64,000 nt of DNA from contig JAPWGK010000022.1 in NCBI GenBank assembly GCA_029641185.1, positions 62,001 to 126,000 of the forward strand, read 5' to 3'. A program made the translations under genes and the position numbers. This DNA comes from Pseudofabraea citricarpa (lineage: Eukaryota > Ascomycota > Leotiomycetes > Helotiales > Dermateaceae). A model generated the notes under the pieces. The model did not search any database, was not told where the DNA came from, and was given only the letters and a program-made list of their open reading frames with translations. This document shows positions 4,543 to 37,693 of the stretch, in pieces; within the stretch, counting starts at the first letter, position 1, and each line of letters starts with the position of its first letter.

Positions 4543-5995
4543 ATGGGTTGGACTTTTAACACCGTCAATCCCGACGCAGAGACCAATGCTCCGACGATCA
4601 CTGCCGTGGGGGTGAGCTTCAGCGTTCTATCTCTGATCGTCGTTTGCTTGCGAATGTACGTTCGAGGTTTTATGATCAAAGCTATTGGACTCGGTAAGTT
4701 TATACTTGAATATCTTATACTCAAGGCTAATGGATTTTGTCAGATGATTGGACCATCGTCGTCACTTGGGTATGAGACAGCTGAAACTAATGAGTTAAGC
4801 TCAGACTAACCGTATTATAGTTTCTCGCTCTGGGATTCATGATAGTCACCATTTTGCGTAAGTATCAGAAGGCTATAACGGTCGAGAGAAACTAACTGTC
4901 ATTAGAATCAAAATATGGACTTGGACTACAGAATCTGTCTGATATGCCAGACCAGAACATCTTCATGTTCGGCCTCGTAAGTTCTTAACACTTGATTGCC
5001 TGCTAGAAAAAACAGCTAACATAGACAGTATCAATATTGCGGTGCACCATTGTATGAATCCAATTCTTCTGTACCTCGACTTCACTAACACAGGTTAGCT
5101 ATATTACTAGCATATTAGGCTTCAAACTCAGTTTGCTCTTCTCATTTTTGCGAATCGCTGTCGAGCGGATTCATCGTATGGCGATCATGGTTATTATCGG
5201 ATTATGTACCGCCCATAGTTTCTGTTTCTTGATTGTACAGATCAACTTGTGCAGCCCAGTAAGCACTATAATCTCGTCAATCGCTGCGACATGTAGCTAA
5301 TCTATCATCAGATCTCAAAGCAGTGGGACCCTGCAGTCACGACAGGAAGCTGCCTGGTTGCTGTGCCATTTTACACTAGCATGGCCAGTTTGACAATCCT
5401 TTTTGATGTCATCATGTAAGTACATATGGTTGTGGCAGCTCATTGGCAATGTAGTAGCTAATAATCTATCAGCATGCTCACACCCTTCCCTATGTTATTG
5501 AAAGCACAGATTCAACCCAAGAAGAAGCTGGTCCTCCTCGGAATCTTTTCTCTCGGCACCTTCGTGACGATCATCCAGATCATTCGAATCCTGACCATCA
5601 AATCGCTTGCCAACTATATCGACAGCTCGGAGCTCATTATGTGGTCGATGGTGGAGAACAATCTAGGCATAATCGTCGCAAGCATCCCGCCTCTGTCGCC
5701 GCTCATCCGCTCCTTTCGCGACCATACCTCTTCTAGCCGGTCGAAAGGAAAGTCAAGCAGAGGAATGTCGTATGGGCTTCAGTCGATGAAAGCTGGTGCG
5801 AACGGACATGTGGTTCTAGGAAGTGGAAACGATATGAGAAGTGGGCATGACGGGATGCGGGACTCGAAGGAGAACAGCACTGTTGTTGTGGGAGGTGGCA
5901 TGGACAACAGCAGTGAGGAGTTCATCTTCCCAAGCTCCAACCATCAGATCTATCAGAAGACTGAGGTGACTGTCAGTCGGGAGGCGAATAACTGA
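4543..5995 (+). CDS. Rhodopsin-domain (PTH11-like) integral membrane protein
   Basis: Eight exons: 4543-4693, 4744-4769, 4821-4857, 4906-4976, 5029-5051, 5099-5258, 5312-5415 and 5473-5995, giving 364 residues with every junction in frame. The start is the ATG at 4543 with A at -3. Seven hydrophobic segments follow an extracellular N terminus. Hallmarks of the fungal Rhodopsin family (PF20684) are visible: DDW after the first loop, QYCGAP, the LRI-ER-HR cytoplasmic motif, NLCSPISKQWD in the third loop, FDVI and a final N-LGII-ASIPPLSPL helix. The C-terminal 90 residues are hydrophilic and Ser/Gly-rich, suggesting a cytosolic tail. The family is widespread in plant-associated fungi and includes PTH11-like putative receptors, but this protein lacks a CFEM domain, so a sensing role is inference. 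Confidence 0.93.
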
Positions 5996-27393: not shown

Positions 27394-29496
27394 TTAAGCA
27401 TCGGCGGCGGCCTGTTTCATGCATCAGTTCTTATTCTTGTAAAACATTTGCCAGGAGTATCAAAGACGTACAGCATCGCTGGCAGCAGCGGCCTTCGCTG
27501 CTTGCTTAGCTGCTTTCTTCGCTGCCTTCGCATCGCCAGCCGTAGCGTCGGTTGCTGCTGTGGCATCCTGTTGAAATATATCAGCTTTCTGCTAGAGTCG
27601 AGATAATTACATGTGGGAAAAGAGTCAAAGACGTACAGTTGCATCCGCGGTATCGGCCGTTGCTGCGCTATCGCTGGCGTCTGCAGTGTCAGCAGTCTAG
27701 AATGGAGTCAGTAAAGAGCCAATAAATAAAACACAGAACAAGGCTCACGGCAGCATTCGCACCGCCCTTAGCGCCCTTAGCAGCTTTTCCTCCAGTTGCG
27801 CCAGTTGCGGCCTATTTAAGACATCAGCTTTGCTCCCTGAGATATCTTGAAGGTGAGAAGACTTACATCAGCGGTGGCATCAGCGGTGGCATCAGCAGCG
27901 TCCTATTCACAAATTGTCAGTTAGGATGTCAAGATACTTGGTAGGACAAGGCCAAGAAAACGAACATCAGTGGCGGCGTTTGCAGCGTTAGCAGCCTACA
28001 ACAAGATCAGTAAAGGACTCGTGAAGATACACCGAGATCCTCGAGTGTATAAGGGAAGAGGGTCAATTTACATTGGCAGCATTTGCCTTTCCAGCCTTCT
28101 TTCCTGTTGCCCCAGTGTTTGCGCTAGCAGTACCATTAGCGGCTCCCGCATTAGCATCGACAGTCTAGTAAGATATTAGCGACTTTCGTCAAGATGGGTG
28201 TTTTTAGATCCGAATTTGGACATGAAAAGAGCAAAGACGTACGGCATCAGCAGCATCAGCAGCATCAGCAGCATCAGCAGCATCGGCAGCATCAGCAGCA
28301 TCGGCAGCATCGGCAGCATTGGCGTTTCCCTTAGCAGCTTTTCCAGCTCCAGTTCCAGCAGTAGCAGCCTAGGAATGAGATCAGCAAGGCTTATTAAAAC
28401 AGACAGATCCGAATTTAGATATCGAAATAAGCAGGAGAGACATACGTTAGCTGCATTTGCGTTTGCCCCGCCAGCATTGTTGTTATTGCCAGCATTCGCA
28501 GCCTAGAGAGTGATTAGTAAAACTCAATGAAATGGGCGTTCAGACTTGGGCTTGAGGATGGGCATTCGGTATAAAAAGGATAAGAGAACGTACGTTTCCT
28601 GCATTCGCGTTTGCGGCTCCAGCATTGTTATTACCAGCATTGGCAGCCTAGAGAGAGATCAGTAAGCCTTATTAAGAAAGTCTGCACAACTTGGGCTTGA
28701 GGAGAGGATTCCGGTTAAAAAGGATAAGAAAAACGTACGTTTCCTGCATTTGCGGCTCCAGCATTCGCGGCCTGGAAAGAGATTAGTGAGAATTAAGATA
28801 GGCGTTGAGAGTTGGGCTTCAGAATGGGATTTTGATATAGAAATCGCAGAGAAACGTACGTTATTAGCCGCATTGCCCTGTCCAGCAGCGTTTGCATTGT
28901 TGCCAGCTCCGGCTCCATTGCCCTGTGAAAGTTAGAGAGAATCTATCTCGTAATATGATAAAGAACTCACTGCCGCGTTTGCATTGCCAGCTCCGTTGCC
29001 CTGAGAAAGTCAGAAAGAATCCATCTCGTGATATAATACAACTCACTGCTCCGGCACCGGCCCCGGCCGCGTTTGCTCCGTTGCCCTGTGAAAGTTAGAG
29101 AGAATCTATCTCATATTATGATGTGACTTACTGCACCAGCACCGGCTCCCCCAGCTCCAGCTCCATTGCCCTAGGAAAGTTAGCAAGAGTATATCATAAC
29201 ATGATGTGACTTACTGCTCCAGCACCGGCTCCCCCAGCACCAGCACCAGCTCCTCCAGCACCAGCACCAGCTCCCCCAGCTCCTCTGCCGGCCCCCCCAG
29301 CCCCACCGGCACCGCCTGCACCTCCACCACCACGTTGTCTTCTCTCTAATTCATAATCCCGAGCATGTACAGACTCAACATCGCGTGTGGCGATATCAAC
29401 AAGGCTTAAAGCGGAGGAAGGGACAGGCGAGGTATTGACTGCTACCAATGTGGAAAGGATAAGGAGAAGCGAAGACTTGGGAATGTTGAACTGCAT
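27394..29496 (-). CDS. Secreted Ala/Gly/Asn/Asp-rich repeat protein from 16 mini-exons
   Basis: Exons: 29496-29215, 29170-29132, 29085-29047, 29000-28971, 28922-28860, 28771-28739, 28647-28594, 28502-28446, 28368-28243, 28164-28072, 27995-27966, 27902-27867, 27811-27749, 27696-27637, 27567-27472 and 27411-27394. They join to 372 residues; every exon but the first is 18-126 bases, all multiples of three, and every intron is phase 0. Residues 1-23 are a signal peptide, and ELERRQ just before the first Gly run is a Kex2-type site. Composition shifts along the chain: Gly/Ala, then Asn/Ala/Gly (GNGAGNANAA), then (Ala-Ala-Asp)x8, then Ala/Thr/Asp and an Ala/Lys-rich end. There is no Cys or Trp after the leader. 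Early parts resemble silk-like flexible sequence and the AAD part should be helical. No named family recognised; an extracellular structural, ice-binding or matrix role is possible but unproven. Confidence 0.85.
28244..28317 (-). repeat. 9-bp in-frame repeat encoding Ala-Ala-Asp, eight copies
   Basis: Eight consecutive copies of GC(T/C)-GC(T/C)-GAT inside exon 9 of the mini-exon gene. The pure codon register and synonymous T/C variation at third positions suggest replication slippage tolerated by coding. Copy number is expected to vary between strains. Confidence 0.9.
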
Positions 29497-30494: not shown

Positions 30495-31862
30495 TCAGTT
30501 ACCATATTGCTTCCTGAGAAACATTCCTGAGCTGCCTTTCTCTCTCCATTCTTCCAGGAGAACTTCTATCTCAACTCTGGCATCTGCGACGATAGCATCC
30601 ATCTTGATATCGTTTCTGTCAAATCCGAAAGGGTCTTCTAATTGCTGTCCGATTGCCTCGATGCCATACAACATGAAAATGACGAAACTCGTCAACGGAA
30701 CTGCCCACCAGCCCATTTCTGCAACCATGGCAAATGGCAGCACGGCTCCGAACACGGCCAAAACTTGCTTCTGGTGTATCCTGCTTTGATTAGTAGGATT
30801 CGAAGAAGAATAGGGGTTGATCTTACAGATGAGCAATAGGTATGGGAGTAAGACGAATGGTCTCCATGCGTCCGTATGCGTCAATAAGCGTGTTCAACTG
30901 AACTTGCATCTGACTTGCCTGGGGAGCATGAAACCAAGCCCGATCAGCACCACGCATAATATACCGCTCCACAAAGAAGCTCAGCTCCAAGGCCAATCCC
31001 AGTCCCTGCTCTTGACAACTCTCCAAACCTGTTGGAAGGAAATTCGAAAACTCGTGAGCATTATCTGGTACTGTGCTTGCCATGCTCAGTGTGCTATAGC
31101 TTGGTAGCAACATCCGAGATAGTAGTCCAGAAGAGCTGCGACTCAAAGTGCCATCGCTGAATTCCAGCGGCGCAGTCTCACCCCATTCTGCACGAAGGTG
31201 GTTCTTCACAGCGTATAGTATGCCAATCAAACACCCCACCACTTGTTGTACCTCCATGTCCTCCGCGGGTGTGTTTGGGCGGGGTTTTGACCCGGATGTG
31301 AGGGAGGAGCAAGTCAGGAAGGATCGCGCGAGATTGCGGCATGATGTGCTGATCGTCGTGAGATAGTTTCGACCCGTCCAGAATCTCTCGTATGAGGTTT
31401 GGTTTCGGAACACGAGCATCAGGCCCACGACTATTGACAGACTGGGCATCTACATTATTATTAGTATGGTGCAATCACCTTTGGAGTATCGGCACTCACA
31501 ATACTAGCAGGTAGACTCAGGTTGCCGTCGATTTCCTCATCAATATACACTACAAGAGCTGCAAAGAGCGCATGGAGTACCGTGGGAACAAGAATAGCTA
31601 CAAAGGGAGATTAGTTGAAGTACACCAGACTACATGAGATCTCGTAACATACCCCCATGGACAGCACCTTTGATGAAGCGCAATACCAGAGGCCATCTAG
31701 GGAAATCAAATCAGCTACTTTCACGGAAAAAACCAAGCTCCTTAAGGTGACAGACCTTCGAGGCTTGTGTCTGCTGGCATTTGGAAAGGGGTAGGTTCTT
31801 CTCCTCCTTGGTATGCCGTCAATGTTTCCTGTGGGAGTATTGTGGCCTGAAGGACTCGACAT
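30495..31862 (-). CDS. Bestrophin-like anion channel
   Basis: Exons 31862-31756, 31696-31653, 31597-31500, 31449-30827 and 30780-30495 give 385 residues, all in frame. An N-terminal Arg-rich cytosolic segment precedes the first membrane helices (LVPTVLHALFAALVVYI and SIVVGLMLVF). The signature NQTSYERFWTGRNY follows, the Bestrophin/UPF0187 family motif (PF01062). A pair of C-terminal helices (VLAVFGAVLPFAMVAEMGWW and PLTSFVIFMLYGIEAIG) leads to the conserved EDPFGFDRNDI stretch before an acidic tail. Members form pentameric chloride/anion channels; fungal ones are little studied and probably sit in plasma or vacuolar membrane. Neighbours give no hint of its role. Confidence 0.94.
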
Positions 31863-35329: not shown

Positions 35330-37693
35330 ATGCATTCTTTTTCGGTTGTCGTGCTTCTGTCCGCAGTCAGATCGATTGCGGCAGTTCCTTATAATTACGG
35401 CCCAGTCTCAGACGCTGTAACAAGCAGTTCGGCAGTCGCATATGATTACGGTTCGGTTCCCGAATCGGCTGCTACCACTTCAGTAGTTGATTACAATTAT
35501 GAGCCCGTCACGGAATCTGCCTCTGCATCAACCACTTCAGCAGTCCCATATGCATATGTTCCGATTACTAATACTACGTCGACCATTTCAATCTCTGAGC
35601 AGACTACAACAGCTCAAGCCACGGCTACTCCGATCTATAACCTTAATAACTCGACTTCTTATCCCCAAGTTGATAATACCACAGCCATCTCATGGCTTAA
35701 TGACACAACAGCTTTCCTCAACCCCGATCTTACCATCGAAGATTGCGCTTTTAACAGCACTACTGGGTGAGTGGATCCGAGGCTTACATTGCTAGTCGCC
35801 ATACTTACTTTGCCTCAGAATCCACGCAGAATGCTGGGAGATCTTGAATATGACAGAGCACCTAAACGTAAGCAATTAAATCTGTTAAAACCTTTTACGT
35901 TGCTAACACGTAATAGACCTGGTGGTCCGAGAATGGAGCGCAGTGCGGTGATTCTGGTTTCGCAGAATGTTATTTGAACGTTGCCGTAAGTTTGAAGCTT
36001 AATTCAGGCTTAATGATCGCCCACTCACAAGTTTCAGGGCTTCATTACCTGGGACTGCGATATCATCTCACTCAGCACTTGTATCCCTCCCCCAAGTGGA
36101 GACAACGCAGGCTATCAGTCTTATCAAGAGTTCTATGTAAGTCCCACTGCTCATATGCCCTTTACTCAAGCTAATAATCAACTAGACTATTTGGAATATT
36201 TATGGTAAGCTCTTCGAATTTTGGTTCAGGACCAATCACTAACAGACATAGCCATCAATCAGTTCTTCTCTACTTATCACCAAGCTATTATCAACGGTCA
36301 AGCAGAGGCAATGTAAGCAATAACACTATCTAGCGACTCGAGTACCTATACTGACTTTGATCAACAGTGGTGCTGTATCCGAGATCATCCGAGTTGTAGC
36401 ACCTCCTGTGACAACCAACGTTGAGACACCAGTGAGTCATAACAATCTCTACTCTAACCATTGTATCGTTCTAAATCTTACCGTGTAGACCGTCGGTATT
36501 GTCTTTGCTGTATCTATCGGAATCCTAGCAGTAAGTAATCCAGAAAAAACGACAGTACTCAACCCTCCTAACACAAAACAGGGCCTCAGCGCATTTGTGC
36601 CAAGTGGAATCCCCGCTTTCGTTTTCGGTTCAGTGTTTGGAGCACTTGGTGGAGCAACCGGACTCGGTGATCTTCTGTTCCCATCTGAGGAAGTCGAGAT
36701 CATCCCATGGTCTGGTGTTGCTGCCCGCATGTCACAGCAGGTTGATGATTACCAAGTCGGTGTTGGCAATGTTCTTACTGCAGTCATGAACAACTTCGAT
36801 GCTTTCTCTGATATGGCCAGTGGTGGTGGTTTCAGCCAGGTATGAGCCACGAGTACTTATTTCTCTCACTCTGCTAATAAGCCGATAGAAAGTCGCTACT
36901 CCTTTACCAGAGCAAACGAGCTTCATGTACCACGACCTTCTCAAGTGGACCTTCACTCAGGCAATCCAAGCCCGCGAATGGTTTGTCGTCAAGAAGTGAG
37001 TGAGGATCTTAAGAGTTCGTGATCTAAACTGACTGGATTCTAGCACTGGTGTCGATCCTCAAAAGATCGATTCTAAAGATTTCAAGTGCGAGTCATACGA
37101 TGAGCACAATGTCTGCGGATTGATCTGGTATGACGGTCAAGACTCTTACGGTCTAGCACAAGCAAATGGTATGCCTCAATATTCCTCGTTCCCACCAGCT
37201 TAAGCTAACAAAATAATAGATTTGACTGCCGATGCATTCCCAGACATTCTCAAGGTCGCTTTTGATAACAACTGGATTACTCCCCAAGAGCTCTATGTTG
37301 ACTCTCAAGCATGCCGAACGCGAAACAGCCAACAGGGATTCAAGCCCGATGATCTAATCTTGAGCTGCGCTGTAAGTCATCACTAGAAAATCCTCTTTTA
37401 GGATGCATACTTATGTCGTTTTAGTCAAACACTCCCGTTTGTGAAGTTAATGATGGCTTTGACGCCAAGGATTATGTCTCACAGAGAAACAGCGGACCAG
37501 AATTCAAGAACTGCCCAGATCAGCGAGGCTGGGGTCTGGCTCCTCACGGCAGCGCACATTTACACAAAGAGAAAGCCAGAGTCCCAATGTCTTATCTTGG
37601 CCCATTCATCGTAAGTTTATCCAATTCAGCCTACTTCAATGCTCATTACTAATACCACCATAGAGCACTGGTGTGGAGTACAAGCCGCTATAG
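35330..37693 (+). CDS. Secreted repeat-bearing protein of unknown function, 14 exons
   Basis: Exons 35330-35766, 35819-35867, 35917-35985, 36038-36136, 36186-36204, 36252-36312, 36368-36431, 36489-36530, 36582-36839, 36889-36995, 37044-37168, 37220-37371, 37425-37610 and 37664-37693 give 565 residues with all junctions in frame. A signal peptide of about 18 residues precedes four imperfect repeats of 17-19 residues: AVPYNYGPVSDAVTSSS, AVAYDYGSVPESAATTS, VVDYNYEPVTES.. and AVPYAYVPITNTT. A Thr/Ser-rich N-glycosylated linker follows, then a Cys/Trp-bearing domain (HAECWEIL, WWSENGAQCG, WDCDIISLSTC). A strongly hydrophobic stretch, VGIVFAVSIGILAGLSAFV plus GIPAFVFGSVFGALGGATG, could be one or two membrane or pore helices. 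The C-terminal half has paired Cys and polar sequence. I do not recognise the family. Confidence 0.85.

Follow-up and report, generated by a model that had tools for sequence, protein, structure and literature searches.

A many-intron fungal gene probably grown by tandem duplication of phase-0 exon-intron units

How does a gene come to be divided into 16 exons by introns that never interrupt a codon, and does such an arrangement serve splicing or record the way in which the gene was built? The question is raised by a minus-strand locus in a 64,000-nucleotide stretch of contig JAPWGK010000022.1 of Pseudofabraea citricarpa (hereafter, the window), in which a first-pass annotation had seen a secreted protein diversified through its exons. 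In a scan covering 30 of the 51 stop-to-stop frames in the window, neighbouring frames matched a fungal bestrophin (30823-31449), a fungal rhodopsin-domain protein (5465-5995), GH5 and GH3 proteins, an ABC transporter, MFS transporters and a carboxylesterase; together with short introns and a genome of 44 Mb, these matches point to a filamentous ascomycete. The window also includes, at 35330-37690 on the plus strand, the beginning of a further secreted-looking gene that combines Y-[ND]-Y repeats with numerous short introns (at most seven strict introns per 2.1 kb); a chain search there returned no introns. A 5.8S rRNA found no match in the 44-Mb assembly, from which the rDNA was perhaps left out.

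Re-modelling of the locus placed an ATG at 29496 and the end of the stop codon at 27394, with 16 exons, 15 GT-AG introns and a product of 372 amino acids (Table 1). All 15 introns are in phase 0, the internal exons are all symmetric, and a CTRAY motif is present in every intron, its first base 13-18 bases before the intron end. A phase-blind chain search returned exactly these 15 introns at weights of 40 and 80, so that the model first proposed (15 GT-AG introns, phase 0, 372 residues) is confirmed by re-modelling and at two of three weights; the 372 residues had, however, been counted as following the signal peptide, which they include. At the lowest weight, 20, the search gave 13 introns, with introns 8 and 14 left unspliced and the frame abandoned at intron 8, and a cruder earlier scoring gave 12, with introns 8, 14 and 15 read through.

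Table 1. Coordinates of the window gene and of a second gene of like build
Feature	Position	Strand	Basis or remark
Exon 1 (94 aa)	29215..29496	-	signal-peptide-like N-terminus, pro-region, dibasic LERR|Q, then Gly/Ala repeats
Intron 1 (44 bases), family A	29171..29214	-	gene model and intron-core comparison
Exon 2, GNGAGAGGAGAGA	29132..29170	-	gene model; 28/39 bases identical to exon 3
Intron 2 (46 bases), family A	29086..29131	-	gene model and intron-core comparison
Exon 3	29047..29085	-	gene model and exon alignment
Intron 3 (46 bases), family A	29001..29046	-	gene model and intron-core comparison
Exon 4	28971..29000	-	gene model and exon alignment
Intron 4 (48 bases), family A	28923..28970	-	gene model and intron-core comparison
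Exon 5	28860..28922	-	gene model
Intron 5 (88 bases), family B	28772..28859	-	gene model and intron-core comparison
Exon 6, AANAGAANAGN	28739..28771	-	gene model; 31/33 bases identical to exon 7
Intron 6 (91 bases), family B	28648..28738	-	gene model and intron-core comparison
Exon 7	28594..28647	-	gene model and exon alignment
Intron 7 (91 bases), family B	28503..28593	-	gene model and intron-core comparison
Exon 8	28446..28502	-	gene model; 46/54 bases identical to exon 7
Intron 8 (77 bases)	28369..28445	-	weakly related to introns 6 and 9 (z 3.0 each); left unspliced at lowest weight
Exon 9, (DAA)n run	28243..28368	-	9-base minisatellite at 3' end
Intron 9 (78 bases)	28165..28242	-	weakly related to introns 8 and 14
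Exon 10	28072..28164	-	gene model
Intron 10 (76 bases)	27996..28071	-	weak donor GTAAAT; no clear relation to intron 8
Exon 11	27966..27995	-	gene model
Intron 11 (63 bases)	27903..27965	-	weak donor GTTCGT
Exon 12	27867..27902	-	gene model
Intron 12 (55 bases)	27812..27866	-	gene model
Exon 13	27749..27811	-	gene model
Intron 13 (52 bases)	27697..27748	-	gene model
Exon 14	27637..27696	-	gene model
Intron 14 (69 bases)	27568..27636	-	start GTACGTCTTTGA common to intron 15; read through at lowest weight
Exon 15, DATAGDAKAAKKAAKQAAK	27472..27567	-	peptide common to the second gene (contig 43)
Intron 15 (60 bases)	27412..27471	-	gene model
Exon 16 (5 aa and stop)	27394..27411	-	gene model
Second gene, contig 43	L017 4570..3652	-	237 residues, 5 exons

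A strict splice scan (donor GTRNGY, branch CTRAY, acceptor YAG, 40-100 bases) found 14 non-overlapping introns in the gene region, 13 of them those of the model. The remaining candidate, 27999..27903, stands where the model has introns 10 and 11, both with weak donors; choosing it leaves most of intron 10, with an in-frame stop, in the message. When introns 8 and 14 are kept, a second frame with a Leu/Met/Pro-rich tail is open from 28445 to 27378 on the minus strand, probably as a by-product of the repeats. With this alternative frame also available beyond intron 8, openness alone is no proof of frame 0 in that part of the gene and other support is needed; it is provided by exon 15, which encodes in frame 0 a peptide, DATAGDAKAAKKAAKQAAK, that is shared with the second gene. 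The minisatellite of exon 9 (28311-28243, minus strand), a 9-base (GAT GCT GCY)n, is a place at which strains are likely to differ in length.

One could suppose that the locus is not a gene at all and that a satellite-like repeat has acquired splice signals by chance: its complexity is very low, it includes a minisatellite, and its conceptual product has no database relative among the candidates scored. The number of splice signals argues against this, 14 strict introns in the gene standing against a mean of 0.59 and a maximum of 4 in 500 dinucleotide shuffles, and against a mean of 0.91 and a maximum of 7 in 239 other windows of 2103 bases, taken on both strands and not touching the gene. Chance signals also fit poorly with a frame that stays intact through 16 exons, a hydrophobic N-terminus, a third-position bias among exon copies (below) and the shared peptide, and we regard a satellite origin as highly unlikely. 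Judged from these features of the sequence, the locus is very probably a real protein-coding gene.

The relationships among the introns were analyzed by comparing their cores, after removal of the donor hexamer and of all bases from the branch site to the intron end, in 105 pairs with 300 shuffles, the best 25 pairs being listed. Seven pairs (6-7, 5-7, 2-4, 3-4, 2-3, 5-6 and 1-2) beat all 300 shuffles, and each falls within introns 1-4 or within introns 5-7. Inside the first family, pairs 1-4 and 1-3 are weak (reached by 4 and 24 of 300 shuffles, respectively). Pairs 14-15, 8-9, 9-14 and 6-8 have a z of 3.0 and were reached by one to three of 300 shuffles (14-15 by two), a level that is partly attainable by chance with 105 tests. 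Among the best 25 of the 105 pairs, introns 10, 12 and 13 show no clear relation to other introns, and intron 11 is weakly related to intron 14 only (z 2.5).

The grouping proposed in the first-pass annotation was upheld in part. Its third group, introns 8-10, does not hold together, as intron 10 shows no clear relation to intron 8 (z 1.7, reached by 19 of 300 shuffles), whereas the sequence AAATTCGGATCT ascribed to introns 8 and 9 is present in both. The sequence CTAACTTTC, said to be common to introns 1-4, is exact in three of the four, intron 3 having CTGACTTTC, and CAAGCCCAA/TTATCC, said to be common to introns 5-7, is found in introns 6 and 7 but is not exact in intron 5. CTAAC is a general branch-site form.

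The adjoining exons are alike as well, as can be seen for exons 2-3, 6-7 and 7-8 (Table 1) and for exons 3-4, which agree at 21 of 27 aligned bases. Differences between exon copies fall at codon position 3 in 29 of 40 cases (75 codon pairs in six exon comparisons), a count in which alignment on residues leans toward position 3 and the six comparisons share exons. Within families, the introns of the window gene are 0.66-0.87 identical (seven within-family pairs measured); the identity of introns 4 and 5 was set aside, being inflated by gapping, and one alignment of units has an overlapping row (drop_E2toI3), with unit 3 counted twice. Since the intron cores are related and the adjoining exons are also copies, exon and intron were evidently duplicated together in the 5' half of the gene. 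The earlier proposal that the gene grew by duplication of exon-intron units thus stands for introns 1-7, on both intron cores and exon copies, and is strengthened by unit copies in the second gene; in the 3' part, introns 8, 9, 14 and 15 lend it weak support, and it is undemonstrated for introns 10-13.

Families of related introns would also be expected if introner-like elements had multiplied by insertion into coding sequence that was already repetitive. Such insertion does not account for adjoining exons that are copies too, and a search of the 44-Mb genome with all 15 introns, in which very common words were skipped, retrieved no intron copies elsewhere and hence no near-identical introns in many unrelated genes. 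Intron insertion of this kind is therefore very improbable.

Because all internal exons are symmetric, every skip would keep the frame, and the first-pass annotation had concluded that exons can be skipped in frame as a built-in means of diversification. The frame arithmetic is true, and schistosomes do have secreted micro-exon genes (MEGs) with exons mostly in multiples of three (PMC10526429, excerpt), for which the skipping of symmetric micro-exons in varied combinations to yield many isoforms is claimed. Unit copying alone, however, predicts the symmetry. Averaged over 23 fungi, exon skipping accounts for 3% of alternative splicing events and intron retention for 61%, and a prevalence of intron definition is proposed as the cause (PMC3925392, excerpt); the introns of the window gene, at 44-91 bases with donor and branch signals, also differ from those of MEGs, which measure from 100 to almost 5000 bp (PMC10526429, excerpt). 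Retention of any single intron leads to an in-frame stop (11 of 15) or a frameshift (4 of 15). Skipping as a diversification device is thus unsupported, and we consider a splice-diversified secreted protein distinctly unlikely. Unlikely, too, is a fungal counterpart of micro-exon genes, in which variable use of the symmetric duplicated exons of a secreted disordered protein, through skipping and through frequent gain or loss of units between strains, would diversify the surface or secretome, two such genes of one genome sharing a Lys/Ala module. As uniform phase follows from the copying of phase-0 units, it does not speak for programmed exon skipping, and unit duplication at the DNA level is the better supported of the two.

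The predicted protein contains 147 Ala, 69 Gly, 43 Asn and 27 Asp among its 372 residues and is probably secreted, judged from its hydrophobic N-terminus, where hydrophobicity peaks at residue 10. The RR of LERR|Q (29343-29338) corresponds to residues 52-53, and the chain that follows is 87% Ala/Gly/Asn/Asp; after the N-terminus there is no Cys, hydrophobicity is low, and Pro, Phe and Leu are almost absent. No Pfam family was matched at E 0.1 by this protein or by that of the second gene. Against a database of ~5.8 billion proteins, in which the representation of spliced fungal genes is uncertain, the full-length protein found no match at E 0.001 among the 7992 candidates sharing most words that were scored, and its 56 N-terminal residues found three candidates, none at E 10. 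Protein and DNA matches in the organism's own genome on contig 40, at one contig 4 locus and on contig 1 were rejected as simple repeats or composition matches.

The second gene lies on contig 43 and shares the exon 15 peptide. Its product is Ala-rich and probably secreted; N-A-T or N-G-T sequons lie in its modules, and the protein has five of them. It has a signal-peptide-like start, basic cleavage-like sites (EAR|APVYP and NRSPKKK) and the C-terminus SGIDAILSNLGIDLGNL, and consists in part of three tandem near-copy exon-intron units, with exon copies 0.83-0.86 and their introns 0.74-0.88 identical; introns 2-4 are in phase 0 and intron 1 is in phase 1. Its signal-peptide-like start, basic cleavage-like sites and tandem phase-0 units are thus features in common with the window gene, from which it differs by having five exons, a phase-1 first intron, N- and C-termini of its own, sequons and database relatives.

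The peptide DATAGDAKAAKKAAKQAAK, 19 residues long, occurs exactly in window exon 15 and twice in the contig 43 gene (exons 3 and 4). Differences between the coding sequences at codon positions 1, 2 and 3 number 0, 0, 11 and 0, 0, 12, respectively, the zeros being largely a consequence of having chosen identical peptides. The two genes may nevertheless be unrelated, each having drifted to Ala-rich repeats, so that the shared KAAKKAAKQAAK would be a generic Lys/Ala helix. Consistent with such convergence, the 54 N-terminal residues of the window protein matched only themselves at E 10, the similarity of the genes over their whole length is barely above that due to composition (local score 254, reached by 0 to 9 of 500 shuffles depending on the scheme), and an order-3 Markov resample, which copies long stretches, gave a 19-residue match in 4 of 300 cases. 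In local shuffles and in order-1 and order-2 resamples (300 each), by contrast, the longest match had maxima of 9-12 residues, and both genes combine a signal-peptide-like start, a basic site and phase-0 units in a like layout. Convergence, which concerns the link between the two genes only, is accordingly possible but the less probable account of that link.

Three database proteins (P0001-P0003) share the N-terminus of the contig 43 product, at 60-63% over 51 residues, among the 7992 candidates sharing most words that were scored. Their sources are recorded as jgi, lgn and ena, the contigs being 2.8-4.4 kb long, and they are probably metagenome-derived; P0002 had no match to viral contigs. 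The N-terminus of the window protein differs from that of this family (MKNFGSIL...EAR.PYP...R.PKK). As P0001-P0003 carry only similar Lys/Ala stretches, the DATAGDAKAAKKAAKQAAK module of window exon 15 and contig 43 exons 3 and 4 may not define the MKNFGSIL family. In P0003, two copies of a module seem to flank a read-through intron, which the residues suggest is probably in phase 1 and not 0.

The genome was scanned for further such genes with two acceptor-context patterns. The first had 14 matches, four of them in the window gene; none of the other ten lies at a predicted strict acceptor, nine having no strict intron within 1 kb and one having one. The second had three matches, all in the contig 43 gene. 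This screen is weak, two of the three true contig 43 acceptors and the acceptor of window exon 11 having scored negative, and since it rejects true acceptors, more genes of this kind may have escaped it.

Although the first-pass annotation knew no named family like this one, and indeed no Pfam family was found, the architecture has named parallels in schistosome MEGs, MaSp2 and flagelliform silk genes, and tropoelastin. In MaSp2 genes, short related introns delimit the repeat units and are thought to aid duplication and homogenization of these units (PMC9779670, excerpt). Like the window gene, MaSp2 and flagelliform silk genes encode a low-complexity, secreted, Ala/Gly-rich protein and have short related introns between repeat units, and they differ in that MaSp2 introns are on average 97.6% similar within a gene (PMC9779670, excerpt), as against 0.66-0.87 here, and in that silk proteins are very large. 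As in spidroin genes, exons and introns were duplicated as units, here for introns 1-7 and their exons; homology of the window protein to spidroins, elastin or any other Pfam family was not detected at E 0.1. The silk genes show that introns can delimit repeat units, a precedent in favour of the unit-duplication reading. The tropoelastin gene ELN likewise encodes a low-complexity secreted protein, with one domain per exon and Lys-Ala domains in exons of their own, and is alternatively spliced (PMC7947355, excerpt). The window gene lacks Val-Pro-Gly repeats, has tiny introns and no known cross-linking partner, and no homology to ELN is claimed. MEGs share a signal peptide and many short, mostly symmetric exons, with secretion predicted here from the hydrophobic N-terminus. 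MEG exons of 6-81 bp, however, lie among long introns, their products are rich in Pro, Phe and Leu, and, unlike in MEGs, many exons of the window gene are visible duplicates (PMC10526429, excerpt). The architecture is thus of a known kind, while the protein itself is unnamed; searches of the open-licence PMC literature brought up no fungal example.

The structure of the window gene, the unit copies across introns 1-7 and a second gene of like build can all be read from the DNA itself. The reading that we favour, with a probability of roughly 0.7, is that the gene grew by tandem phase-0 unit duplication and encodes a secreted, disordered surface or matrix component. Each unit would comprise one short phase-0 exon and its intron, and new copies would probably have arisen by unequal crossing over between existing ones or by slippage. 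Phase-0 introns in the founding units would make every copy symmetric, and the uniform phase would be inherited and not selected for splicing choice. The product would enter the secretory pathway, where a Kex2-type protease would probably cleave it at LERR|Q, releasing a chain of ~320 residues, cysteine-free and, from its composition, presumably disordered, with Gly/Ala, Asn/Gly/Ala, Ala/Asp and Ala/Lys/Thr/Asp blocks in this order. A surface or matrix role, for which composition and length would matter more than exact sequence, appears most likely. Variation would then arise at the DNA level through changes in the number of units, a number that may still be changing.

The locus offers a compact fungal case of gene lengthening by duplication of exon-intron units, in which related introns record the steps, and the contig 43 gene adds a second example of unit duplication within one genome. 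Loci of this kind could easily be mis-modelled by gene finders whose training relied on ordinary genes. Since the surveyed fungi seldom skip exons (PMC3925392, excerpt), a gene in which any skip would keep the frame provides a clean natural test of that rule.
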